Shown here: piece by piece, positions 1 to 43,049 of the stretch | Layout: every line of letters begins with the position of its first letter | How positions within the stretch are numbered: position 1 is the stretch's first letter | DNA from: Actinomyces sp. | Lineage (GTDB): Bacteria > Actinomycetota > Actinomycetes > Actinomycetales > Actinomycetaceae | NCBI RefSeq assembly: GCF_029851875.1 | Contig: NZ_JARKVC010000015.1 | Coordinates: 1-64,000, forward strand | DNA: 64,000 nt | Direction of reading: 5' to 3' | Made by a program: the position numbers and the translations under genes | The notes under the pieces: model-generated | Told to the model about the DNA's origin: nothing | The model's input: only the letters and a program-made list of their open reading frames with translations | The model's database searches: none

Positions 1-10
1 CGGTCGCGGG

Positions 11-78
11 GAGTGTGCCGGTGGGGGGGCGTGTGTGCACCTAGGACATGCACACTCACCCCCGCACCTGCACACTCG
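11..78. repeat. Dispersed ~70-bp palindromic element, copy 1
   Basis: Outer arms read GAGTGTGC and GCACACTC, around an inner GTGTGCAC/TGCACAC pair. The same plan recurs at 6292-6363, 42686-42757 and 42952-43023. This copy is the most diverged: its left arm is interrupted by a G-run. It lies just past the 3' end of uxaC and shows no coding potential. The element is defined here only by comparison of the four copies. Confidence 0.7.
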
Positions 79-143
79 TGGATGGAGAGGGAAGGAAAGC
101 GGAGATGACCGGGCCGACCGGCTCCAGCCCCGCCCCCACCGCC

Positions 144-4795: not shown

Positions 4796-6265
4796 ATGTC
4801 CACCTCCTCCACGAGCCAGTCGCCCGCGGCGGCTGCGGGCAGCGCCAAGCGCCCCTTCGGCCTGCGCGACAAGCTGGGATACATGTTTGGTGACTTCGGC
4901 AACGACTTCACCTTCGTGCTCCAGATGGCCTTCTTCATGGTCTTCTACACCAACGTCGTAGGGATCAAGCCTGCGCACGTGGGCACGCTGCTGCTGGCGG
5001 CCCGCGTGGCCGACGGCTTCACGGACGTGGGTATGGGCATGCTAGTTGACCGCCTGCCCGGAGCCCGCAAGGGAGAGAAGTTCCGCCGCTGGATCAAGTT
5101 CATCTGCGTCCCTGTGGCCGTGGCCTCGGCGCTGATGTACATGTCCTTCGTGGCTGACTTCGGCTCCTACGGCGCCAAGCTGACCTGGATGGTGGCCTCC
5201 TACTTCCTGTGGGGCTCGGTCTGCTACACCGCCATCAACATCCCCTACGGCTCGATGGCCTCGGTGGTCTCCCCGGACCCCGACCACCGCGCTGACCTGT
5301 CCGTCTTCCGCTCCACCGGTGCGACGCTCGGCAACATCGCGATCATGACGATCCTGCCCCTGGTGGTCTACCGGACCAACGCCGAGGGCGTCTCCGTCCT
5401 GGACGGACCGTCCATGACCATGGGGGCGGTGGCCTGCTCGGTGCTCGCTGTCATCTGCTACATCCTGTGCTACTTCCTGGTGGAGGAGCGCGTGGAGTCC
5501 AGCACCAGGTCCAAGGCTGAAGGAGGCATGGGGCTGGGGACGATGCTCGCCTCGATCTTCTCCAACCGTGCGCTGCTGGGCCTCATCGCCTGCGCGCTGC
5601 TGCTGCTCGTGTCCTCGATGTTCGCCTCGGGCATGCTCAGCTACCTGTTCCTCAACTACTTCGGCAACGGCAAGCTGCAGTCCCCGGCCTCCATGGCGGC
5701 GCTCGTGCCCACCCTGGTCCTCGTCCTGGTCTGCCCGTGGCTCTCGCGCCGCTTCGGCAAGGCTGAGGTGGGTGCTGCTGCCACGAGTGTGGCCGGCGTC
5801 ATCATGATCGCTGCCTACTTCCTGCACATCCAGTCCGCCACCGTGTGGATCGCGGTCTACGGCGTGGCCGCCTTCGCGATGGCGATCTTCACCTACCTCG
5901 TGTGGGCCTTCATCACTGACGTCATCGACTACCAGGAGGTGCGCACCGGCCAGCGTGACGACGGCACCGTGTACGCCGTCTACTCCTGGTCCCGCAAGCT
6001 CGGTCAGGCGCTGGCCGGTGGGCTGACGGGCTGGGCGCTTGGCTGGGTCGGCTTCGACCAGGTTGCCGCCAAGGCTGGCGCGGTCCAGACCGACGCTGTC
6101 AACGACGGCATCTACATGCTGGCCAACCTGGTGCCGGGCGTGGGCTACCTGCTCGTGGCCGCGGCGATCCTCCTCCTCTACCCGCTGAAGAAGAAGGTTG
6201 TGGACGGCAACAACGCGATCCTCCAGGAGCGTCGCGCTGCTGCTGCCGTCGCTGCCGCCAGGTGA
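4796..6265 (+). CDS. GPH-family sugar:cation symporter, probable glucuronide carrier
   Basis: The 489-aa membrane protein has about 12 hydrophobic segments. Its N-terminus (KLGYMFGDFGNDFTFVLQM) and the D-x-x-x-D stretch after the second helix (ARVADGFTDVGMGMLVDR), with INIPYGSMASVVS, are typical of glycoside-pentoside-hexuronide symporters such as UidB and MelB. The ATG at 4796 is preceded by ACAGGAG about 8 nt upstream, and the conserved family start follows; an in-frame extension to 4673 lacks conserved sequence. It is divergent from uidA-lacI-uxaC, so import of beta-glucuronides is the simplest role. The family is clear; the substrate is inferred from context, and another hexuronide or oligosaccharide is possible. 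Confidence 0.85.
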   Translation: MSTSSTSQSPAAAAGSAKRPFGLRDKLGYMFGDFGNDFTFVLQMAFFMVFYTNVVGIKPAHVGTLLLAARVADGFTDVGMGMLVDRLPGARKGEKFRRWIKFICVPVAVASALMYMSFVADFGSYGAKLTWMVASYFLWGSVCYTAINIPYGSMASVVSPDPDHRADLSVFRSTGATLGNIAIMTILPLVVYRTNAEGVSVLDGPSMTMGAVACSVLAVICYILCYFLVEERVESSTRSKAEGGMGLGTMLASIFSNRALLGLIACALLLLVSSMFASGMLSYLFLNYFGNGKLQSPASMAALVPTLVLVLVCPWLSRRFGKAEVGAAATSVAGVIMIAAYFLHIQSATVWIAVYGVAAFAMAIFTYLVWAFITDVIDYQEVRTGQRDDGTVYAVYSWSRKLGQALAGGLTGWALGWVGFDQVAAKAGAVQTDAVNDGIYMLANLVPGVGYLLVAAAILLLYPLKKKVVDGNNAILQERRAAAAVAAAR

Positions 6266-6291
6266 GGCTGGCTGGGGCTGATTTTCTTCTT

Positions 6292-6363
6292 GCGAGTGTG
6301 CAGGTGTGTGGGTGGGTGTGCACCTTGCGGGTGCACTGTCGCCTGCGCACCTGCACACTCGCG
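6292..6363. repeat. Dispersed ~70-bp palindromic element, copy 2
   Basis: Perfect 14-bp outer arms (GCGAGTGTGCAGGT and ACCTGCACACTCGC) enclose an inner GGGTGTGCACC/GGGTGCAC stem. It starts 26 bp after the stop of the symporter gene, where it could act as a 3' hairpin, and runs directly into the GGTCGG-rich block at 6400-6620. Same family as 11-78, 42686-42757 and 42952-43023. Confidence 0.8.
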
Positions 6364-6399
6364 TGGGCGGGGGTGGTGGTGAGGCCGGACGACGGCGGA

Positions 6400-6620
6400 G
6401 TCTGCTCTCGACCGACCACCTGCGCCTCGACGGAGCACGCATGTTCCGACCGACCGTCTGCGCTGCCTTCGACCACCTGTAGTCCGACCACCAACGCTGC
6501 CGTCGACTACCTATGTGCCGACCGCCCTCCTGGGCCTCGCCCGACCACGGCATTCACGCGAATCTAGTGGTCCGTCGGGGTTTGTGCGGTCGGTCGGTGC
6601 TTGAGTGGTCGGTCGGGCTC
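6400..6620. repeat. GGTCGG-rich composite repeat, copy A (diverged)
   Basis: Many CCGACC/CGACCACC words fill the left half, a core reads CATTCACGCGAAT (near 6550), and GGTCGG words fill the right half. The whole block is therefore an imperfect inverted repeat about its core. The same architecture and core occur at 8410-8760 and 13338-13557. No convincing reading frame. It occupies most of the gap between the symporter gene and the 3' end of the ClC gene. Confidence 0.65.
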
Positions 6621-6631
6621 CAGGCTCTGGC

Positions 6632-8155
6632 TCAACACCGAGCAGCTCGGCGCCGCGCCCAGGCTCGTTCCGCCTCACCTGCCGCCAGGCACCCGACGGC
6701 GAGCGCGCCCAGCGTCCACACCGGCCCCTGCGCCAGCTCCCAGACGAACACGGCGGCAAACCACGGAGCACGCTGCGTCACCGCGAGCGTGACCCCCGCG
6801 CCGACCAGTGCCATCGCGGGCACGCTGACCGCCATCCCCGCAGACGCCAGCCCCACCGCTACCGCCGCTCCGACGCTCGCGCCCAGGCTGAAGGAGGGAG
6901 CGAGCAGCCCGCCAGTGGCACCTGCCCCGAGCGTGGCGGCGGTAAGTACCGGCTTGAGGATAACCACCCCGAGCAGGGCGAGCGCCGCCGTCGTTGTCAC
7001 GGGGGAGGAGACGGCCGCCTGAAACGCGTCCTTGCCGTTGCCTGGCAGGACCACGAGCCACAGCGAGGCCAGGCCCGTGAGCGTCCCGGCCCCGGCGATC
7101 GCCAGCGGCAGGCTCCAGGCGTCAGGCAGCCGGTGGCGGCGCACCCACGCCCACAGCGCGCGAGCGGCCACGCCAGCCAGGCCGGCCGCGACGACCACGG
7201 GCAGGCTCGCAGCCAGGGTCGGCCAGGTCAGGGGCGAGGCCGGCATGGCGATCGAGGCCTCGGCGTGGGAGTGCAGCCAGGACACGCAGGTGGCCAGCAC
7301 GCTGACTGGCACGGCGAGCAGCAGCCCACGGCGGCGGGTACCGGTCAGCATCATGATCTCGACGGCGTAGGCGGCCCCGCCCAGGGGCGCGTTGTACATC
7401 GCGGCCAGCCCTGCACCGGCGGCCGAGGCCGCGAGCAGCGCCATCCACTGCGGCTCAAGGCCGAGCCAGCGCGCCAGTCGTACGGCGACGGCGCCCGCGG
7501 CCAGCCTCGGGGCCCCCTCTCGGCCCACGGAATTGCCGCCGCCCACGGTGAGGACCTGGACGACGGCGTCGCCGAATGGACGCAGGAGCCCGATGCGCCG
7601 GGATGCGGGGCGGGCGGGGGCGGTCGGCGCTGGGGAGGCTGACGTGGTGGAGAGGGGCTCCTGCACAGGTTCGACAGGGTCCGTGGGATCAGCTGGTGCG
7701 GTGGGCGTCACCGGTGCCTCGGGCCGTGGGGCGCTGGCCTCGGCGACGACGGCCTCGACGCTGACGACCCCGCCGGTTGCGCGTTGCCACCACCACAGGG
7801 CACCGGCGATCAGGCCGGCGGCGGCCGGGGCGGCGACGCGTCGCCAGGCGGGGGCCGCAGCCACGCGCTCGGGCAGTGTGCCGTGGGCGACGCCGTAGAA
7901 GAGCCACTCGAAGGCTTCGAGCAGATACGCCATCGCGATGCCGATGAGGCCCGCTGCCAGGCCGGCGAGTACCGCGGCCAGGACCAGGCGGGCGGCGGGG
8001 TGAGGCCCGCGTGCGAAGGAGGGCTGGCCTGGAAGGTCCGGGAAGCCGGGACCGGTGCTGGCCGGCGTGGCGGGCCCAGTGGTGTTTGAGGCGCTGGGGT
8101 CGTAGGGGCGCCTGGGAGATGGGCGGTTGGTGGCGTCGGCGGAGGAGGCAGGCAT
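6632..8155 (-). CDS. ClC-family chloride channel or H+/Cl- antiporter
   Basis: The 507-aa product is a multi-helix membrane protein with the ClC selectivity motifs. GNSVGREGAP contains the gating glutamate, and GGLLAPSFSLGA corresponds to the GGxFxP motif; NAPLGGAAYAVE matches the usual NAPLAGxxFxxE. A roughly 60-residue Pro/Ala/Thr-rich insertion (about residues 145-200) sits in an early loop, unusual for bacterial ClC proteins, and the N-terminal 50 residues are also low-complexity. No Shine-Dalgarno is visible. TATCGT lies 8 nt before the ATG, suggesting a leaderless mRNA. Channel versus antiporter cannot be decided without alignment of the proton glutamate. Confidence 0.88.
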   Translation of the reverse strand: MPASSADATNRPSPRRPYDPSASNTTGPATPASTGPGFPDLPGQPSFARGPHPAARLVLAAVLAGLAAGLIGIAMAYLLEAFEWLFYGVAHGTLPERVAAAPAWRRVAAPAAAGLIAGALWWWQRATGGVVSVEAVVAEASAPRPEAPVTPTAPADPTDPVEPVQEPLSTTSASPAPTAPARPASRRIGLLRPFGDAVVQVLTVGGGNSVGREGAPRLAAGAVAVRLARWLGLEPQWMALLAASAAGAGLAAMYNAPLGGAAYAVEIMMLTGTRRRGLLLAVPVSVLATCVSWLHSHAEASIAMPASPLTWPTLAASLPVVVAAGLAGVAARALWAWVRRHRLPDAWSLPLAIAGAGTLTGLASLWLVVLPGNGKDAFQAAVSSPVTTTAALALLGVVILKPVLTAATLGAGATGGLLAPSFSLGASVGAAVAVGLASAGMAVSVPAMALVGAGVTLAVTQRAPWFAAVFVWELAQGPVWTLGALAVGCLAAGEAERAWARRRAARC

Positions 8156-9108
8156 CGCGCACGACGATAGCGGGCAGCGCCGTCAGGCGGATGGCACAAG
8201 TGGTTGGTGCAAGCCGTGGTGGGTTTGCGGGAAGGGGCTGGTGCCTACTGCGGGTCTGTGCTTAAGGGGGGGCGGCTCACCGTGGGCTACACGGCGGACG
8301 GGCAGCAGTGCGGGTCTGCGCTTAGGGGCGCCGGGGCCGGTGGTGGTTCCTGCGGTGAATCCTGCAGCGGTGCCCGTGGCGTCCCGCTGTCGGCTATTCG
8401 TGCCTCGAGCGACCGCCAAAGTGCCCACGGCCTCTGTGCCACCTCCGCCTGTCAAAGCCCCGACCGACCACCAAAACACCCACAGACCCCCTGTGCCGCC
8501 CCCGACCGCCAGATCCACCTCCGACCGCAGAATTCACGCGAATACCACGGTCGGAGGTGGCATAGACGGTCGACCAGAACACAGGCAGTCGGTGGGGGCA
8601 CAAGTGGTCGGGCCACGAGTGGTCGGAGGTGGCACAGGCGGTCGGCGGGGGCACGGGCGGTCGGGCCACGAGCGGTCAGAGGCGGTGCAGGCGGTCGGTG
8701 GGGGCACAGGCGGTCGGTGGGGGCACAGGTGGTCGGGCCGGGGCGTTGACGGCAGGCTGGGGCGTTGAGCGGTCGGTGAAAGCCTGCGATCGGCGCAGCG
8801 TGCGACGGCCGAAGGCCACGGTCCGCTCCCGCGCTTTCACTCAACCCTCACGTGGTGTCGTGGTCGACGCCGCACCACCTGCCCATTCCCTGATGAGCCG
8901 TCATAACGGTAGCCTCGTCTCTCGCCGAGGCGGCGGATCGTTGTTGTGCGGGGTCGCCCTGCGGGGCTGTCCGAGGGACGCCACGTGGCCGACTCGCCGG
9001 CGCGCCCGCCCTGGGTGCCCTGTCTACCTCTGACGCCGTCAACCCCTCAGCGCTGCCTCGGCACCGTGCTGTCTCGTGTTTGTCAGTCCTGGATCCACGG
9101 AAGAACCT
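8156..9108. other. Long intergenic region with repeats upstream of the ABC exporter
   Basis: This 953-bp gap between two diverging genes holds composite repeat copy B and tandem GGTCGG units to about 8760. From 8760 to 9108 I see no gene. A TAGCCT hexamer at about 8909 could be the -10 of the exporter operon, and GCCTCG/CGAGGC forms a small stem right after it. Open frames here are Gly/Arg/Trp-rich translations of the repeats and are not believed. Confidence 0.6.
8410..8760. repeat. GGTCGG-rich composite repeat, copy B, with tandem extension
   Basis: Positions 8410-8629 match the reverse complement of 13338-13557 with about 17 differences in 220 bp counted by eye (about 92%). The core is GAATTCACGCGAATACC. 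Left of it the strand is rich in CCGACC, right of it in GGTCGG, so the block is an imperfect palindrome. From 8630 to about 8750 extra units follow, including a 19-bp tandem period (GTCGGTGGGGGCACAGGCG). Together with copy C it brackets the two ABC genes as inverted repeats. Confidence 0.8.
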
Positions 9109-10842
9109 ATGCTCCTGTCACTGTTGCGCAGCTATCTGCGCCCTTACCGGGCTCTCCTGCTCGGCGTCCTCATTCTGGAGGCCACGCAGGTGATGGCCTC
9201 GCTGTACCTGCCCAACCTCAACGCCGACATCATCGACACCGGCGTCGCCCAAGGGGACACCGCCTACATCTGGCGCACCGGCTCCCTGATGCTCCTGGTC
9301 TCCGTGGCCCAGGGCACCTGTGCGGTCGGCGGCACCTGGTGCGCGGCCAAGGCCGCGATGTCCATGGGCCGTGACCTGCGCAGCCAGCTCTTCCGCCGGG
9401 TGGGCGACTTCTCCGAGCAGGAGGTCTCCCGCTTCGGCGCCGGATCCCTCATCACCCGCACCACCAACGACGTCCAGCAGGTCCAGACCCTGGTCCTCCT
9501 GGGATGCACCATGCTCGTGACCGCTCCGATGTACGCCGTGGGCGGCGTGGTCATGGCGGTGTCCCACGCGCCCAGCCTGTCCTGGCTCATTGCCGTGGCC
9601 GTGCCGGTGCTGCTGGTCATCGTGGGCGTGACCGTGGCCAAGATGCTGCCGCTCTTCCGCGTCTACCAGGACAAGCTTGACGCCATCAACCGCACCATGC
9701 GCGAGCAGCTGACCGGTATCCGCGTCATCCGCGCCTTCGTGCGCGAGGAGGCTGAGACTGAGCGCTTCCGCGACGCCAACGCGGACATCACCCGTGTGGG
9801 GGAGAGGGTCGGCCAGCTCTTCGTCTTCCTCTTCCCGATCACTATGCTCGTGCTCGACGTGACGATGGTGGGCGTCATCTGGTTCGGCGGTCACCAGGTC
9901 GGTGACGGCCGGGTGGAGGTCGGCACCCTCGTGGCCTTCATGACCTACCTCATGCAGATCCTCATGGGCATCGTCATGGCCTCGTTCATGACCATCATGA
10001 TCCCGCGCGCCACGGTGTGCGCCGAGCGCATCAGCGAGGTGCTGGCCACTGACCCCTCCATCGAGGTGGCCGACGACGCCACCACCGCCTTCCCGGCCCC
10101 TGGCGCTGTGGAGATGCGCGGCGTCTCCTTCACCTTCCCGGGCGCTGACGCCGCCGTGCTGGAGGAGATCACCTTCCGCGCCGAGCCTGGCCAGACCGTG
10201 GCCGTGGTCGGCTCGACCGGCTCGGGCAAGACCACGCTGCTCAGCCTGGTAGCCCGTCTCATCGAGCCCACCCGAGGTCAGGTGCTGGTGGGCGGTGTGG
10301 ACGTGATGACGGCGGAGCCCGAGGCCCTGTGGTCCCAGATCGGCCTGGTTCCTCAAAAGCCCTTCCTCTTTGCCGGCACGGTGGCCTCCAACCTGCGGCT
10401 GGGCCGTGAGGACGCCACCGAGGACGAGCTGTGGCGGGCGCTGGAGATCGCCCAGGCGGCAGACTTCGTCAAGGAGATAGAGGGCCAGCTCCAGGCCCCG
10501 ATCGCCCAGGGCGGCACCAACGTCTCGGGCGGCCAGCGCCAGCGCCTGTCCATCGCCCGCGCGATCGTGCGTCGTCCGGCGCTCCTGCTGCTGGACGACT
10601 CCTTCTCGGCCCTGGACGTGGCCACCGACGCCCGCCTGCGTGCAGCGCTCACCCAGGCCACCGAGCAGGTGACCAAGCTCGTCGTCGCACAGCGCGTGTC
10701 CACCGTCATCGACGCCGACCTCATCCTGGTCCTGGACGAGGGCCGTCTGGTCGGCGCCGGTCGCCACGACGAGCTCGTCACCACCAACGAGACCTACCGT
10801 GAGATCGTCACCTCCCAGCTTGGAAGCGAGGCCGCAGCATGA
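9109..10842 (+). CDS. Heterodimeric ABC exporter, degenerate-site subunit
   Basis: The 577-aa protein has six N-terminal membrane helices and a C-terminal nucleotide-binding domain: Walker A GSTGSGKTT, signature VSGGQRQRLSIARA and Walker B LLLLDDSFSALD. The residue after Walker B is Asp rather than the catalytic Glu, and the switch histidine is replaced by Gln (VVAQRVSTV). This is the usual mark of the degenerate half of LmrCD/TM287-288-type exporters. The ATG at 9109 has GGAAG 6 nt upstream and MLLSLLRSYLRPYR is the conserved start; an in-frame extension to 9076 is not supported. Its last codon overlaps the next gene by 4 bp (ATGA), so the two are co-translated. Substrate unknown (drug, lipid or peptide). 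Confidence 0.92.
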   Translation: MLLSLLRSYLRPYRALLLGVLILEATQVMASLYLPNLNADIIDTGVAQGDTAYIWRTGSLMLLVSVAQGTCAVGGTWCAAKAAMSMGRDLRSQLFRRVGDFSEQEVSRFGAGSLITRTTNDVQQVQTLVLLGCTMLVTAPMYAVGGVVMAVSHAPSLSWLIAVAVPVLLVIVGVTVAKMLPLFRVYQDKLDAINRTMREQLTGIRVIRAFVREEAETERFRDANADITRVGERVGQLFVFLFPITMLVLDVTMVGVIWFGGHQVGDGRVEVGTLVAFMTYLMQILMGIVMASFMTIMIPRATVCAERISEVLATDPSIEVADDATTAFPAPGAVEMRGVSFTFPGADAAVLEEITFRAEPGQTVAVVGSTGSGKTTLLSLVARLIEPTRGQVLVGGVDVMTAEPEALWSQIGLVPQKPFLFAGTVASNLRLGREDATEDELWRALEIAQAADFVKEIEGQLQAPIAQGGTNVSGGQRQRLSIARAIVRRPALLLLDDSFSALDVATDARLRAALTQATEQVTKLVVAQRVSTVIDADLILVLDEGRLVGAGRHDELVTTNETYREIVTSQLGSEAAA

Positions 10843-12989
10843 GCACGAAGAACCCTCAGTCCGCGGCGCACGAGCCCCAGGAGCCGCAGGCGAGCACGGC
10901 GGGCGGCGAGCTGGCAGCGTCAGGCGCGGCTGCGTCGTCGGCCTCCGAGGAGACGACGGCGAGGCCCGCCCCCGCCCTGGAGGTCACCGACGAGGACCAG
11001 GCCCTGGCAGCAGCGGCCCTGGCCGGGGCCGACGACTGGACCGCCGGACCGCCCCCGGGCAAGGCCACCGCCTTCTGGCCCTCCTTCAGACGCATGATCG
11101 GCCTGCTGCTGTCCTACAAGGGGCACCTGGCGATCGCCGCGGTGGCCTCGGTGTCCTCAGTGGTGATGGCCGTGGTCGCGCCCAAGGTGCTGGGGCGGGC
11201 CACGAACCTCGTCTTCGAGGGTGCGATCAGCTCGCGCCTGCCGGAGAACCTGACCAAGCAGCAGGTCGTGGACGGCATGCTGGCTGCCGGCCAGGACAGG
11301 ATGGCCCAGATGGTCCAGGCCATGAACCTCGTGCCCGGGGCCGGGATCGACTTCGAGGCCCTGTCCCGTGTGCTGCTGACGGTCCTGGCCCTCTACGTCT
11401 TGTCCGCGCTGGCGGGCTGGCTGGAGGGCTACGTCCTCAACCGCGTCATGGTGCGGGCGATGTTCCGTCTGCGCGCGGAGGTGGAGGACAAGATCCACCG
11501 CCTGCCGTTGTCCTACTTTGACAAGGTGCAGCGTGGTGAGCTGCTCAGCCGTGTCACCAACGACATCGACAACGTCACCAACACCCTCCAGCAGTCGCTG
11601 TCCAGCGCAGTGACCTCGGTACTCACCGTGATCGGCGTGCTGGCGATGATGCTGTCAGTGTCCTGGAGGCTGACGCTGGTGGCCCTCATCATCCTGCCGC
11701 TCATGGGCGTGCTCTTTGGCATCATCGGGCCGCGCTCGCAGAAGGCCTTCACCCTGCAGTGGGCACGTACGGGCAGGCTCAACGCCCGCGTGGAGGAGTC
11801 CTTCTCCGGGCACGCCCTGGTGCGTACCTACGGGCGGACCGAGGGCTCGCGCGCCGACTTTGACTCGGAGAACGAGGAGCTCTTCGCGGCGGGCCTGCGG
11901 GCGCAGTTCCTGTCCGGCATCATGATGCCGATCATGCAGGTGGTGGGGAACCTGGGGTACGTGGCCATCGCGGTGGTCGGCGGGCTCATGGTCTCGGGCG
12001 GCTCGCTGCGCCTGGGCGACGTGCAGGCCTTCATCCAGTACTCCCAGCAGTTCTCCCAGCCGCTGGCACAGCTCGGTGGCATGGCCACGGCCGTGCAGTC
12101 CGGGACGGCCAGCGCCGAGCGGATCTTCGAGCTGCTCGACGCCGAGGAGGAGCAGGCAGACCGCTCTGGTACCCAGGCGCTCGCGCCGGCGGGCTCCGGG
12201 GAGGCCAGCGGTGGGGCCGACGGCGCTGCCGGCACCGGCGCCGGGGTGATCGAGATGGAGCACGTGCGCTTCTCCTACGACCCCGACTCCGATCTCATCA
12301 CGGACCTGTCCCTCAAGGTCGAGCCTGGCCAGACGGTGGCGATCGTCGGGCCGACGGGCGCGGGCAAGACCACCCTGGTCAACCTGCTCATGCGTTTCTA
12401 CGAGATCGACGGCGGCCGGATCACCCTGGACGGTGTGGACACGGCGGCCATGCGGCGTCGGGACGTACGTGCGCGTACGGGCATGGTGCTGCAGGACCCG
12501 TGGCTGTTCGCCGGCACGATCCGGGAGAACATCCGCTACGGGCTCCCGGGCGCCAGTGACGAGCAGGTCGAGGCCGCGGCCCGCGCCTGCTACGTGGACC
12601 ACATCATCCGGGCCCTGCCCGAGGGCTACGAGACGGTGCTGGACGAGGACGCCGCCAACGTCTCGGCCGGCGAGCGTCAGCTGCTGACGATCGCCCGTGC
12701 CTTCATCGCCGACCCGGCCGTCCTCATCCTCGATGAGGCGACGAGCTCGGTGGACACGCGTACCGAGCTGCTGGTCCAGCACGCGATGGCGGCCCTGCGT
12801 GAGGGACGTACGAGCTTCGTCATTGCTCACCGACTGTCCACGATCCGTGACGCGGACACGATCCTGGTCATGGAGCACGGGGACATCGTGGAGCAAGGTA
12901 CCCACGAGGAGCTGCTGGAGCGTCGGGGTGCGTACTGGACGCTCTACCAGAGCCAGTTCGCCGGCGCCACGGAGGACACCGCGGCCTGA
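10839..12989 (+). CDS. Heterodimeric ABC exporter, catalytic subunit
   Basis: The 716-aa partner of the preceding gene starts with a roughly 85-residue Ala/Glu-rich cytoplasmic extension, then six membrane helices and a nucleotide-binding domain with Walker A GPTGAGKTT, a full Walker B plus catalytic Glu (VLILDEATSSVD) and switch His (FVIAHRLSTI). Its signature motif is non-canonical (VSAGERQLLTIARA). In the heterodimer this altered signature faces the partner's degenerate Walker site, so one ATP site is active and one is not. An Ala/Gly-rich linker near residues 440-470 joins the membrane and ATPase parts. No regulator gene accompanies the pair. Confidence 0.92.
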   Translation: MSTKNPQSAAHEPQEPQASTAGGELAASGAAASSASEETTARPAPALEVTDEDQALAAAALAGADDWTAGPPPGKATAFWPSFRRMIGLLLSYKGHLAIAAVASVSSVVMAVVAPKVLGRATNLVFEGAISSRLPENLTKQQVVDGMLAAGQDRMAQMVQAMNLVPGAGIDFEALSRVLLTVLALYVLSALAGWLEGYVLNRVMVRAMFRLRAEVEDKIHRLPLSYFDKVQRGELLSRVTNDIDNVTNTLQQSLSSAVTSVLTVIGVLAMMLSVSWRLTLVALIILPLMGVLFGIIGPRSQKAFTLQWARTGRLNARVEESFSGHALVRTYGRTEGSRADFDSENEELFAAGLRAQFLSGIMMPIMQVVGNLGYVAIAVVGGLMVSGGSLRLGDVQAFIQYSQQFSQPLAQLGGMATAVQSGTASAERIFELLDAEEEQADRSGTQALAPAGSGEASGGADGAAGTGAGVIEMEHVRFSYDPDSDLITDLSLKVEPGQTVAIVGPTGAGKTTLVNLLMRFYEIDGGRITLDGVDTAAMRRRDVRARTGMVLQDPWLFAGTIRENIRYGLPGASDEQVEAAARACYVDHIIRALPEGYETVLDEDAANVSAGERQLLTIARAFIADPAVLILDEATSSVDTRTELLVQHAMAALREGRTSFVIAHRLSTIRDADTILVMEHGDIVEQGTHEELLERRGAYWTLYQSQFAGATEDTAA

Positions 12990-13696
12990 GCGCGGGCGCG
13001 GGCGTGCTGGGGGTGAGGGTGCGGGCGCGGGCCTGCTGCGGAGGGGCACGTGTGCTGTCCGACGCCGACCCCACCCAGCCACCGGGCTCCGCCCCGAGGA
13101 CAAGGCTACCTGCGCCGGCCTGGAGCTGGTCCTGGAGGAGGGCGAGCCGGTGCGGGTGCTGATGACGGCGTGCCTAGAGGGCGTGGCGGCGTGTTCTCAG
13201 TGCCGCCCACCGAGGTAGTGCGCTGGACTTTCCCAGCCGAAGCCTGCCTGACCCGGCTCGAGGTGCTGTCAGCCCGAGGTCCGAGCGTCCTCGCCGAGCC
13301 TGATGCTTGCCTGAGCCTGTCTCGCGCTTTGCTAGCCCCTCTGACCACTCGTGGCCCGACCGCTTGTGCCTCCGCCGACCGTCTGTGTTCTGGCCGACCG
13401 TCTGTGCCGTCTCCGACCGTGGTATTCGCGTGAATTCTGCGGGCGGGGGTGGATCTGGTGGTCGGGGGTGGCACAGGTGGTCTGTGGGTGTTTTGGTGGT
13501 CGGTCGGCGCTTTGACAGGCGGAGGTGGCACAGGGGCCGTGGGCACTTTGGCGGTCGGTCGGGGCACAAGTGGTCGATCTCCCCCCCCCGGGGAGGAGGA
13601 GTGAGGGACGCAGGCAGTTGCCGGCACTGCCCCGGTGCCCGACGCCTCCCAGCGCCCGAGCACTACTGGCTCATCGCCGCCGCAGTGCCAGCCGGC
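12990..13696. other. Intergenic region with repeat copy C and a possible gene remnant
   Basis: This 707-bp gap separates the ABC exporter from the convergent phosphofructokinase gene. 13100-13218 reads on the plus strand as a short coding-like stretch (GLELVLEEGEPVRVLM...) ending in a stop, with no visible start, and may be a gene remnant. 13338-13557 is repeat copy C. At 13581 a run of nine C followed by five G (CTCCCC...GGGGAG) could form a short hairpin. Nothing else is recognisable. Confidence 0.5.
13338..13557. repeat. GGTCGG-rich composite repeat, copy C (inverted relative to B)
   Basis: Reverse complement of 8410-8629 at about 92% by eye, including the core, here read as GGTATTCGCGTGAATTC. 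It lies beyond the 3' end of the ABC pair. B and C are therefore about 5 kb apart, inverted, with only the two exporter genes between them. Confidence 0.8.
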
Positions 13697-16072
13697 CTAC
13701 TCGCCAGCCGGCCCGAAGGTCGGCACCTGCTCAGGGGCCAGCGTGCCGGTGGAGTGGCTGACCAGTGACACCGCCTCGCGCAGCCCCATCCACCACTGCT
13801 CGTTGGGACGGCGCGAGTCGCGATCAAGCTGGTCGTACATGCGCTCCAGCGGGTGGTGAGTGATCGTGCCCTCAACCAGCCCCACATAGCTGGACCGCGT
13901 GCCACCACGCTCCAGCTCCTCAGCCAGCAGCCCGAGGGCGTTGTGCACGAGCTTGGTCGCCATGATGCGGTCAAAGGGCGTGGGGTCCCCACCCTGCTGG
14001 ACGTGCCCGATGATCGCCTGGCGCACGTCGTACAGGCCCTGACCCTCCTGCGCGAAGATCTTGGCCAGCACGTCCGTGGTGTAGTTCTCGCTGGCCCGCT
14101 CGTTGCGCACCACGAGGTAGAGCTTGCGCCCAGAGCGGAAGGACTCCACCATCCGCTCAGAGTCCGCGGCCAGCTGGCTCAGCGTGATCCCCTCCTCGTG
14201 GAGGTAGACCTGCTCGGCCCCGGCGGCGATGGCGCTCATGAGGGTGAGGTACCCGCACTTGCGTCCCATCGTCTCGGTGACGAAGCACCGGTGCGAGGCC
14301 GCGGCCGACTGCTTGACGGCGTCCAGGGACCGCACGGCGTTGTTGAGCGCCGTGTCCGCGCCGATGCTCAGCTCGCTGCCGGGCAGGTTGTTGTCGATCG
14401 AGGCGGGCACGCACACGATCGGGATGTTGAAGGCGGGGTAGCGGTCCCGCTCACGCACCAGCAGGTGGGAGGCCAGGTAGGCGTTGTACCCGCCGATGAC
14501 GAGCAGGGCGTCGATCCGGAGGGACTCGATGGAGCGGCCCAGGGTGTAGAGCTGCTCAACCGTGGGAATCTCGCGGCGCGTGCCGAGCTCGGCCCCGCCG
14601 TCCCCGACCCATCCCTCGACGTCGTCCCAGCTCAGCTCGCTGACCCGCCCGTCGATCAGGCCCGGGAAGCCGCCGTGCACGCCGAGCATGGTCATCCCGT
14701 GGTCCAGCCCCAGGCGCACCGCGGCGCGCGCGGCGGTGTTCATACCTGGCGCCAGCCCTCCGGCGTGGATGATCGCCACGCGCCGGGCCGCGGCGAGCTC
14801 GCTGGCCGACGGCGCAGCCGCCTCGTGGTGCAGCTCGCCCAGTGCCGCGGGGTCGAGCTCGGGCGGGGTGGACATGGTCTCGAAGATGGAGAGCATCTGG
14901 CCGAAGCTGCTTCCGCGTGCGGCCACCGCCCCCTCGAAGTCCTGGGCTGCCACGAGGTCCTTGACGGCACGCGTGGCGGCGATCTGCTCCATCATGGGCA
15001 GGCGGTGGATGCGGTTGTGGCGCTCGGCGATGATGACCGGCTCGCAGTCGGTGGTGGCGGTGAGCACCTCACGGGCGGCTGCGCAGCCCAGGAGCGTGGA
15101 CATCCAGCGGTCGTAGGCGCTGGGCTGGCCACCGCGCTGGACGTGACCGAGGATCGTCACGCGGGCGTCCTCCCCCAGGCGGTCCTTGAGGATGACGCGC
15201 ACGTCCTCGGCGGTGATGCGGTTGCCCTCGCGGTCGGTGGCGCCCTCGGCCACGATGACCATGGACTCGCGGCGTCCGGCCTGGCGTCCCTTGTGGAGCT
15301 TGAGGCACATGTCCTCCTCCCACCCCTCGCCCGGCGGGAGCTCGGGAACGAGCACGTAGTCACAGCCCCCGGCCACGGCCGCCATGAGGGCGAGGTAGCC
15401 GCAGTGACGGCCCATGACCTCGACCACGAAGGTGCGCTGGTGGGAGGCGGCGGTCGACGAGATGTCGTCGATGGCCTCCAGGATGCGATGGAGGGCGGAG
15501 TCGGTGCCGATGGTCATGTCCGCGCCCACGAGGTCGTTGTCGATCGAGCCGACGATCCCGGTGACGATGAGCACGGGGTGGGCGGCGCCAACCTCAGCGC
15601 TCACCCGTCCGCTGGCCACGAGCTCGTCCACGAGGCCAGGCCAGTTGCGGCGGAACTCGTTGGTGCCGGTCAGTGAGCCGTCGCCCCCGATGACCACGAG
15701 CCGGTCGATGCCGTGCTCCAGCAGGTGGGCGGCGGCGTCGAGCTGGCCGGAGCGCTCGCGGAACTCGGCTGAGCGGGCGGTGCCGATGATCGTGCCGCCC
15801 TTGTGGAGGATGGAGCCCACGGAGTCCCACTCCAGGGGGCGGATGCCCTCTCCGCCGGCCACGGCCCCGGCCCACCCCTCCATGACGGCGTAGGGCTGGG
15901 TGCCCATGCGCAGGGTGGCACGGACGACGGCGCGTACAGCCGCGTTCATTCCCTGGGCGTCCCCGCCGGAGGTGAGGATGCCGACCCGCACGCGCTCGCC
16001 GTCGGGCGTGAGGATCGCCTCCTGGCTGGTCGTGGGCTCGGGGGTGGTGGCGCGCGTGGTGTGCTGGTCCAT
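13697..16072 (-). CDS. Tandem (double-domain) 6-phosphofructokinase
   Basis: The 791-aa product holds two consecutive phosphofructokinase domains, twice the usual bacterial length of about 320-340 aa. The N-terminal half (about 28-390) has GILTSGGDAQGMNAAV, the ATP-type GGDGSLTG and the catalytic VGSIDNDLVGADMTIG, so it should phosphorylate fructose-6-phosphate with ATP; PPi enzymes have GGDD and K-T-I-D-N-D instead. The C-terminal half (about 410-790) has AGGLAPGMNTAA, a changed nucleotide loop GGYNAYLASHLL and SIDNNLPGSELSIGADTALN, resembling the regulatory half of eukaryotic PFK. The start is the ATG at 16072 with GGGAAGGA upstream; longer frames run antisense to sucC. It diverges from sucC. 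Regulation through the second half is inference. Confidence 0.9.
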   Translation of the reverse strand: MDQHTTRATTPEPTTSQEAILTPDGERVRVGILTSGGDAQGMNAAVRAVVRATLRMGTQPYAVMEGWAGAVAGGEGIRPLEWDSVGSILHKGGTIIGTARSAEFRERSGQLDAAAHLLEHGIDRLVVIGGDGSLTGTNEFRRNWPGLVDELVASGRVSAEVGAAHPVLIVTGIVGSIDNDLVGADMTIGTDSALHRILEAIDDISSTAASHQRTFVVEVMGRHCGYLALMAAVAGGCDYVLVPELPPGEGWEEDMCLKLHKGRQAGRRESMVIVAEGATDREGNRITAEDVRVILKDRLGEDARVTILGHVQRGGQPSAYDRWMSTLLGCAAAREVLTATTDCEPVIIAERHNRIHRLPMMEQIAATRAVKDLVAAQDFEGAVAARGSSFGQMLSIFETMSTPPELDPAALGELHHEAAAPSASELAAARRVAIIHAGGLAPGMNTAARAAVRLGLDHGMTMLGVHGGFPGLIDGRVSELSWDDVEGWVGDGGAELGTRREIPTVEQLYTLGRSIESLRIDALLVIGGYNAYLASHLLVRERDRYPAFNIPIVCVPASIDNNLPGSELSIGADTALNNAVRSLDAVKQSAAASHRCFVTETMGRKCGYLTLMSAIAAGAEQVYLHEEGITLSQLAADSERMVESFRSGRKLYLVVRNERASENYTTDVLAKIFAQEGQGLYDVRQAIIGHVQQGGDPTPFDRIMATKLVHNALGLLAEELERGGTRSSYVGLVEGTITHHPLERMYDQLDRDSRRPNEQWWMGLREAVSLVSHSTGTLAPEQVPTFGPAGE

Positions 16073-16324
16073 GGGTGTCCTTCCCGCAGGGTCGTCAGCC
16101 CCATTGTGGTCGCTCGGGTGCCGGGCGTCACCTTTCGCTGGCTGCCAGGTGGGACGACGTCGCCGCTCGCCCTCGTGCGTTGCGGACCTTGGTCCCAACT
16201 TCGGGTCGCGTTTGGACCCGCGTGACGGGCGTCTCGCGCTAGGCTCGTGCGCGGGTCGTCCCGGTGCGGCGCAGCCAGGCCGCCGCGGCCAGAGGGGGAC
16301 CGGAGCCGGAAGGACATGACGTCG

Positions 16325-17536
16325 ATGGACCTCTACGAGTACCAGGCGAGGGAGCTGTTCGCGAAGCACGGGGTTCCCGTGCTCGGCGGGCAGGTCGCCA
16401 CCACCCCCGAGCAGGCCGAGCAGGTGGCCGCCGAGCTTCTCGACCGCGGCAACGACCTCCTTGTGGTCAAGGCCCAGGTCAAGACCGGCGGACGAGGCAA
16501 GGCCGGTGGCGTCAGGCTCGCCCGCTCGGCCGCCGAGGCCCGCCAGCACGCTGAGGCGATCCTCGGCATGGACATCAAGGGCCACACCGTGCGCACGGTG
16601 CTCGTCTCCGAGGGCGCGGACATCGACTCCGAGTTCTACTTCTCCATCCTCCTGGACCGCGCCGAGCGCCGTTACCTGGCCATGTGCTCGCGCGAGGGCG
16701 GCATGGAGATCGAGACCCTGGCCAAGGAGCGCCCCGAGGCGCTGGCCCGCGTGGCCGTGGACCCGCTCGAGGGCGTGACTCCTGAGTGCGCCGCGCGCAT
16801 CACGGCCGAGGCCGGCTTCGAGCCCGGCCCTGTGGCCACGAGCGTGGCCGAGGTCATCGGCCGTCTGTGGGAGGTCTTCACCGCTGAGGACGCCACCCTC
16901 GTGGAGGTCAACCCCCTGGTCCTGACCCCGAGCGGCACGGTGCTGGCCCTGGACGGCAAGGTGAGCCTGGACGACAACGCCTCCTTCCGCCACCCTGAGC
17001 ACGCTGCCCTCAAGGACGCCTCGGCGGCTGACCCGCTGGAGACGCGTGCCAAGGAGGCCGGGCTCAACTACGTGCGCCTGACCGGTGAGGTGGGCGTGCT
17101 CGGCAACGGCGCGGGCCTGGTCATGTCCACCCTGGACGTGGTGGCGGGCGCAGGTGAGCGCCACGGCGGGATGCGTCCGGCCAACTTCCTGGACCTAGGC
17201 GGCGGCTCCTCGGCTGAGGTCATGGCTACCGGTCTGGAGGTCGTGGCGAGCGACCCTCAGGTGCGTGCGATCCTCGTCAACGTCTTCGGCGGGATCACCT
17301 CGTGTGACACGGTGGCCAACGGCATCGTGACCGCGGTCGGCGCCCTGGAGGGCTTCGACAAGCCGGTCGTGGTGCGCCTGGACGGCAACAACGCCGCGCT
17401 GGGACGCCAGATCCTGGCCGAGGCCGCGATCGACGGCGTCACGGTGGTGGACACGATGGACGGCGCGGCTGACGTCGTCACCGCCCTGGCCGAGAAGATC
17501 GGTCAGAGCGCAGCAAGCAGCGAGCAGGGAGCCTGA
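16325..17536 (+). CDS. sucC: Succinyl-CoA synthetase (ADP/GDP-forming), beta subunit
   Basis: The 403-aa protein starts with [19 protein letters not shown], the standard SucC N-terminus, and has the ATP-grasp segment ([15 protein letters not shown]) and the C-terminal CoA-ligase part with [17 protein letters not shown]. With SucD it interconverts succinyl-CoA and succinate with nucleotide phosphorylation in the TCA cycle. The ATG at 16325 is preferred over that at 16316: GGAAGGA ends about 10 nt before the former but only 1-2 nt before the latter. The gene leads the conserved block sucC-sucD-perM-purN; five bases separate it from sucD. Confidence 0.97.
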
Positions 17537-42685: not shown

Positions 42686-42757
42686 GCGAGTGTGCAGGTA
42701 CGCGCATGAGTGTGCACCCTGGGACTGCACACACAGGCGCGTACCTGCACACACGCG
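42686..42757. repeat. Dispersed ~70-bp palindromic element, copy 3
   Basis: Outer arms GCGAGTGTGCAGGTACGCGC and GCGCGTACCTGCACACACGC (one mismatch) enclose a TGTGCACCCTGGGACTGCACA inner hairpin. It flanks the gene fragment at 42764-42951 on one side; copy 4 flanks it on the other. Confidence 0.85.
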
Positions 42758-42763
42758 GGCGCA

Positions 42764-42951: not shown

Positions 42952-43023
42952 GCGAGTGTGCAGGTGTGTGGTCGGCTGTGCACCCTGGGACTGCACACTC
43001 ATGCGCGTACCTGCACACTCGCG
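42952..43023. repeat. Dispersed ~70-bp palindromic element, copy 4
   Basis: Perfect 14-bp outer arms (GCGAGTGTGCAGGT and ACCTGCACACTCGC) and the inner GTGCACCCTGGGACTGCAC hairpin, which is identical in copy 3. It ends 27 bp before the glgB stop codon, where it could also serve as a 3' hairpin for the glgE-mak-glgB operon. Confidence 0.85.
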
Positions 43024-43049
43024 GTCATAGACGGCCCCGCCCGTCGTCC

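Follow-up and report, generated by a model that had tools for sequence, protein, structure and literature searches.

Long intergenic hairpin elements flanking an ABC exporter operon in Actinomyces, a dispersed family with signs of local homogenisation

Two similar inverted repeats, B and C, lie on either side of a pair of ABC exporter genes in the window, a stretch of 64,000 nucleotides from a draft Actinomyces genome (G000; 2.45 Mb in 47 contigs). The exporter's closest named relatives are from Actinomyces. The repeats probably belong to a dispersed family of non-coding intergenic hairpins whose members look old in this lineage and seem to have stayed in place. According to this explanation, the 92% identity of B and C was produced by recent local gene conversion, and the elements likely have a role as hairpins at gene 3' ends. 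Old and apparently immobile intergenic repeats thus seem to swap sequence over kilobases, in direct or inverted orientation, while the genes between them remain unrearranged.

Anatomy of the elements

The elements and the genes around them are listed in Table 1. In a repeat search, positions 8390-8629 and 13338-13577 form an inverted pair of 240 nt, 90% complementary and spaced by 4708 nt. Direct comparison of B and C gives 23 differences over the 240 nt (90.4%), 19 of which are transitions. A sequence-only reading of the same DNA had described inverted copies of about 220 bp with about 17 differences; a count over 8410-8629 gives 17 (92.3%), in agreement with that description. At its outer edge the match fades across the last 20 nt, which hold six differences, and ends there. 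Towards the exporter genes, B has more GGTC units, up to about position 8776, that are missing from C. Inspection by eye revealed no target duplications flanking B or C, and plasmid records contained no DNA match.

Table 1. Elements and neighbouring genes in the window
Feature	Position	Strand	Remarks
Element A	6412..6616 (approximate)	+	Third, more diverged member; 63% to B; core hairpin 6533-6582
CLC-type chloride channel gene	6632..8155	-	PF00654; left neighbour of B
Element B	8390..8776	+	Core hairpin 8513-8562; outward arrays of ~19-bp GGTC units; 8390-8629 is the part common with C
ABC exporter subunit 1	9109..10842	+	PF00664/PF00005; start from simple gene caller, ORF begins at 9076
ABC exporter subunit 2	10839..12989	+	PF00664/PF00005
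GH92 glycosidase gene relic, 3' end	13093..13275 (boundaries approximate)	+	~71% nucleotide match to L148; junction alignment
Element C	13338..13577	-	Inverted copy of B; core hairpin 13405-13454
Phosphofructokinase (PFK) gene	13697..17164	-	PF00365; right neighbour of C

Each copy is also a long palindrome in its own right, a property that the sequence-only reading had not recorded. Nor had it recorded A, the third family member, which lies upstream of B and matches B or C at only 63-64%.

The two exporter genes had been thought to stand alone between the repeats. Both ABC exporter genes are indeed found there, but they share the interval with the relic of a GH92 glycosidase gene, which lies between them and C. 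The glycosidase gene itself is present at the corresponding place in G043, where it adjoins an assembly gap. PF07971 was found in L148, and a Pfam search of the window ORF at 13050-13433 gave no match.

The core of an element is a 50-nt hairpin of the form GACC N5 ATTC N4 GAAT N5 GGTC, with about 10 mostly paired bases on each side. Its tip, ATTC N4 GAAT, is nearly invariant, and its stem is formed by GACC and GGTC. On both sides of the core there are arrays of 19-bp units, each headed by GGTC and pointing outward. The commonest GGTC spacing is 19 bp (107 cases in one arm, 105 in the other), and the next commonest are 4 and 15, which sum to 19. Over the whole window, 13 of the 186 GGTC spacings up to 40 have this length.

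Base pairing in the core is well maintained. In an ungapped alignment of 26 cores, 83.4% of the cells of the 23-pair hairpin are paired, although the cores were picked by a pattern with symmetric ends and part of the symmetry is due to that selection. Covariation is 0.275, compared with 0.137 in shuffles (none of 500 as high) and 0.05-0.11 when the pairing is slid. The weakest pairs include three that adjoin the tip stem, each unpaired in 8 to 14 of the 26 cores. In a palindrome, covariation could have its source in hairpin-templated repair instead of RNA function.

Folded as RNA, the plus strand of B has a z of -5.4 (0 of 200 shuffles as good) and that of C a z of -2.8 (2 of 200). A search of Rfam with window positions 6000-15000 returned five matches of 23-29 bits, all below the gathering scores of 78-100.

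Copies and placement in the genus

The exact core pattern occurs in four of 49 genomes of the genus, and its reversed control in none. A core model has matches in 13 of the 49. Counted per strand, with at most 122 candidates scored per genome, which makes the counts lower bounds, there are at least 34 matches in G000, at least 38 in G043, at least 24 in G008, at least 49 in G030 and at least 6 in G036. Matches in the eight other genomes are fewer, or of a sibling type.

Sixty-eight copies were placed in these five genomes (17 in G000, 19 in G043, 10 in G008, 20 in G030 and 2 in G036). With genes called by a simple codon-usage method that had four window genes as its training set, no placed copy lies inside a called gene; two are at contig edges. 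Convergent gaps hold 31 of the 66 copies that were classed, codirectional gaps 22 and divergent gaps 13. The 124 element-free gaps of at least 60 bp in the same loci divide into 17 convergent, 75 codirectional and 32 divergent, and the enrichment in convergent gaps (31/66 against 17/124) has a Fisher p of 1.2e-6. The median distance of a copy is 87 nt to a stop codon and 228 nt to a start, and 19 of the 22 copies in codirectional gaps are closer to the upstream stop codon. B, which is among the 13 copies in divergent gaps, is not at a gene 3' end.

A role at gene 3' ends is suggested by the placement downstream of stop codons together with the maintained base pairing. The elements would likely act there as long two-way hairpins, which may protect transcript ends, support factor-dependent termination or insulate convergent genes from each other.

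Intrinsic terminators were considered as an identity for the elements and rejected. A T-rich tail is found at 2 of 136 core ends against 41 of 12459 background positions (0.3%), a small excess in tiny numbers. A terminator pattern scan of positions 6000-14000 found four sites (1.3 in shuffles), two of which are short hairpins inside B and C.

Origin of the match between B and C

Evidence on the age of the elements can be obtained from sister species. In G043, where the locus is in two pieces with assembly gaps, and in G008, the gene order is the same as in the window, with the CLC and PFK genes on the minus strand on either side of the two ABC genes. Gaps A and B hold elements in G000, G043 and G008, and gap C holds one in G000 and G043, where the alignment of the left flank of C between the two genomes reaches the element edge. 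G008 has no detected core at gap C, which is short and holds a different hairpin, and since that hairpin is there, no clean empty site for C was found. With the same gaps occupied in sister species, the copies in the window lineage appear to be old and stationary.

B and C are only 65-69% identical to their best counterparts in the sister species. By blastn, over differing lengths, B matches the two B copies of G043 at 63-77%, and C matches C at 63-65%. The first exporter gene is 92.8% identical in nucleotides between G000 and G043. The right flank of B is only 66% alike over 283 nt between these genomes, so that the comparison of orthologues partly mirrors fast intergenic change. The six elements of G043 are 69-90% alike among themselves. 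Identity within a genome exceeds identity between orthologues, which makes past recombination between B and C probable.

The same preference is seen in other clustered elements. Of 17 clustered elements, 16 resemble a paralogue in their own genome more than the orthologue, and in 14 cases that paralogue is the neighbour within 6 kb. For isolated elements, a paralogue is closer in 8 of 25 and the orthologue in 17. These comparisons used segments of at most 200 nt, and an orthologous place was defined by matching genes on both sides or else on one side. The difference between clustered and isolated elements has a p of 7.9e-5, a value that overstates independence, since all 17 clustered elements were drawn from two loci in three species, with tandem duplicates among them.

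At the second of these loci, the copies are in direct orientation. The pair at G000:C1 is 87.2% alike and the pair at G043:C67 87.7%, against best orthologues at 70.9% and 73.3%, respectively. Since this locus repeats the pattern, local gene conversion best explains the B/C match. The identity of B and C would then come from recent conversion between neighbours, through non-crossover recombination or template switching, rather than from recent transposition or from import of the exporter. Such conversion would act among close neighbours in either orientation.

Some observations weigh against conversion. A is not homogenised with B or C. The within-genome edge in G008 is small (71-77% vs 63-72%), and two of the four clustered elements there have a nearest paralogue that is not their neighbour. 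The 8 of 25 isolated elements that are nearer a paralogue weigh in the same direction.

The orientation of the elements was also compared. In G043 itself, the B copies point the opposite way to A and C. Between species, each G000 element (A, B or C) matches its G043 counterpart better in the same orientation, by a margin that ranges from slight to clear, and B of G008 matches the B sets of G000 and G043 slightly better when inverted. Because the elements are palindromic, their orientation between species is weaker evidence.

Alternatively, miniature transposons from one recent source may have inserted independently at B and C, with no gene conversion. A model for this can be found in a sibling lineage. 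In G014, G029 and G047, arrays of the same layout are built from a different unit (GGTCCAACGGGG...; seven loci). The exact sibling pattern has 37 copies in G014, 40 in G029 and 21 in G047, as well as 28 in G012, 5 in G038 and 3 in G005. Of 75 copies fetched from G014 and G029, 74 were classed: 28 in convergent, 34 in codirectional and 12 in divergent gaps. Eight of the 37 places in G014 match a G029 place by neighbouring genes (six on both sides), in a comparison of exact-pattern copies only, which may miss decayed ones. Sibling copies at unlinked places are up to 97% alike.

When two G014 loci were compared over their whole length, dispersed units of about 355-395 bp came to light, as did relatives that lack them. 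Uninserted places were found in G045 and G005 for one locus and in G047, G038 and G012 for the other; the place in G045 and G005 reads CGAG, not CTAG. The ends of the units are inverted repeats, mostly beside CTAG. Sixteen units were delimited in G014, G029 and G047, of which 14 contain the array by pattern and measure 261-412 bp. Identical 4-mers flank 10 of the 16 (nine CTAG and one CTGG). Both ends lie within 600 bp of the array in 19 of the 75 sibling copies, one end in 20 and none in 36. One such end in G047 is followed directly by a partial gene (175 aa within the stretch, its other end being outside) that matches the IS5-family transposase model NF033580 at 135 bits, against a cutoff of 110. 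The sibling units therefore have the hallmarks of IS5-type miniature elements, namely terminal inverted repeats, target duplication, uninserted relatives and an IS5 transposase with matching ends.

Around the 68 window-lineage copies, no such end was found to a distance of 600 bp (11-mer, one mismatch), nor was one found in the window and 55 scanned loci (18-mer, three mismatches). Thus, the design has been mobile in one lineage and is apparently immobile in the other. Independent insertion draws support from the mobility of the sibling family and from its relatives without the insertion. It is nevertheless unlikely for B and C, given that both gaps are already occupied in G043, with a matching flank at C, that IS5-type ends were not found in the window lineage, and that isolated copies with an orthologous place are closest to the orthologue in 17 of 25 cases.

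The sequence-only reading had proposed that recombination between B and C inverts the operon or, alternatively, that the repeats are the ends of an imported module. Recombination between the two is probable, as described above, and it is the inversion and the import that are not supported. As an invertible segment, the 5-kb exporter block would be flipped by B/C recombination, switching it ON and OFF or changing its context. The length and identity of the repeats, and the recombination inferred between them, are in keeping with such a switch.

The gene order in the genus gives a different picture. A CLC gene was found in 35 of the 49 genomes, exporter subunit 2 or a relative in 48 and PFK in all 49. 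In 11 of these 35, the slot between CLC and PFK holds the exporter, always in a single orientation, and a second orientation was seen in none of these 11 assemblies, in which a minority inverted state may go unseen. The 332 nt upstream of the operon (8777-9108) are inside the segment, and a promoter there would presumably move along with it. Two thirds of the placed family copies (46/68) are unpaired. An invertible segment is, on this evidence, highly improbable.

The exporter is absent from the slot in the remaining 24 genomes, 21 of which have a CLC-PFK gap of less than 3 kb, and so it was gained or lost there. This presence and absence, like the location of the sibling arrays in IS5-type miniature elements, would suit a mobile or imported module with B and C as its ends. 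The exporter also occupies the slot in L009 and L010 with no core-model match at E up to 1, and the six further Actinomyces loci around the exporter, L011-L016, have no such match either. Among the eight other genomes with the exporter in the slot, some of which may share a species with L009 or L010, there is no model match in G016, G027, G028 and G041 and there are one to four, not all of them localised, in the other four. With exporters in the slot that have no core-model match, elements in gaps A and B of G008 and none detected in C, no second placed copy within 6 kb of 46 of the 68 copies and no IS5-type ends near them, such a module is the least probable of these explanations, and very improbable in itself. 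Similar inverted repeats flanking an operon do not necessarily imply phase variation or import.

Comparison with known systems

A wider hypothesis can be offered tentatively. Hairpin arrays with 19-bp phasing may be a feature of Actinomyces in which the layout is constant and the unit lineage-specific. Immobile arrays might be kept uniform by local gene conversion with their neighbours, and spreading ones by capture as cargo of IS5-type miniature transposons, with a conserved host factor recognising the layout at gene ends. Repeats that look mobile in one lineage and sedentary in another may offer a route to the origin of REP-like repeats without the usual transposase.

Invertible, phase-variable segments resemble the present locus in having inverted repeats that flank an operon. 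They differ in that B and C come from a dispersed family and the exporter has a single orientation in 11 of 11 genomes. IS5-derived miniature inverted-repeat elements are similar in that the arrays of G014, G029 and G047, which have the same layout, lie inside such units, whereas these ends were not found near the 68 window-lineage copies.

REP sequences and BIMEs, which are associated with RAYT transposases, are dispersed, extragenic, multicopy and palindromic, with inverted arrays and lineage-specific families, and the present elements share these properties. They differ in length (about 110-390 nt for core and arms together), in the arrangement of 19-bp GGTC units about a single core, and in number, since tens of copies were found here (as lower bounds) and not hundreds. 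The REP-type head is all but missing: of the 136 flanks of the 68 cores, taken on both strands, one has GTAG and one GTGG. The Y1 (IS200/IS605-type) transposase, PF01797, was found in none of the 49 genomes at E<=0.001, although it was present in 5 of 14 control genomes, and a RAYT route is therefore unsupported. Membership of the REP/RAYT system was rejected on these two grounds.

Among open-access titles and abstract openings, no account of such repeats in Actinomyces was found. The name Actinomyces is absent from the main text of PMC3733652 and PMC12306157, and Actinobacteria from that of PMC2817692.

CGTC-tagged palindromic repeats have been reported without a dedicated transposase, in a list of five phyla that does not include Actinobacteria (PMC3733652). 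The present elements are likewise palindromic, and CGTC is present at 39 of their 136 core flanks. For three other Actinomycetota genomes, thousands of palindromic elements and hundreds more candidates have been tabulated (PMC12306157), and REP-like palindromes are therefore not new in this phylum. The family of B and C is REP-like and ordinary in kind, though of unusual length, and its signature of local homogenisation is uncommon.

A second palindromic intergenic family

A second family of palindromic elements lies between genes in these genomes, with the form TGTGCAGGT ... ACCTGCACA and a length that is mostly 61 nt. Among the genus genomes searched, the exact pattern occurs at 16 places in the genome of the window, at 13 in the sister species G043 and at one in the other sister species, G008; it has no match in the remaining 46. 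The gap equivalent to that of the window copy at 6292 holds a copy in G043 and a diverged copy in G008.

Two copies on separate contigs of the window's draft assembly (C38, 6297-6357, and C46, 8450-8510) differ by a single base. The pair may reflect a duplication or a strain mixture.

Hairpin arrays inside IS5-type miniature elements

In G014, from the sibling lineage, two IS5-type miniature elements carry a hairpin array of 19-bp units (table). Uninserted places are found in G045 and G005 for the element in L218, and in G047, G038 and G012 for that in L203.

Coordinates of the features
Feature	Sequence	Position
Second-family copy	Window	9-81
Second-family copy	Window	6292-6364
Second-family copy	Window	42686-42758
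Second-family copy	Window	42952-43024
IS5-type miniature element with array	L218 (G014)	2320-2710
IS5-type miniature element with array	L203 (G014)	2275-2625
GH92 glycosidase gene relic	Window	13093-13275

The ABC/PFK gap and other palindromes

Between the exporter genes and element C lies a relic of a GH92 glycosidase gene. The gene is present at the equivalent place in G043 (L148), where it adjoins an assembly gap; in G008 the equivalent gap is just 145 nt.

The ABC/PFK gap holds element C in the window and in G043, and a different hairpin, GGTCCACGGCGTCCC ... GGGACGCCGTGGACC, in G008 (L149 8108-8252).

Another intergenic palindromic element, with repeated GGTGAGGTCGC words, is found at a contig start in Actinomyces sp. 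S28M_Sa_3 (L009 1-75), and is perhaps a further member of the hairpin-array layout class.
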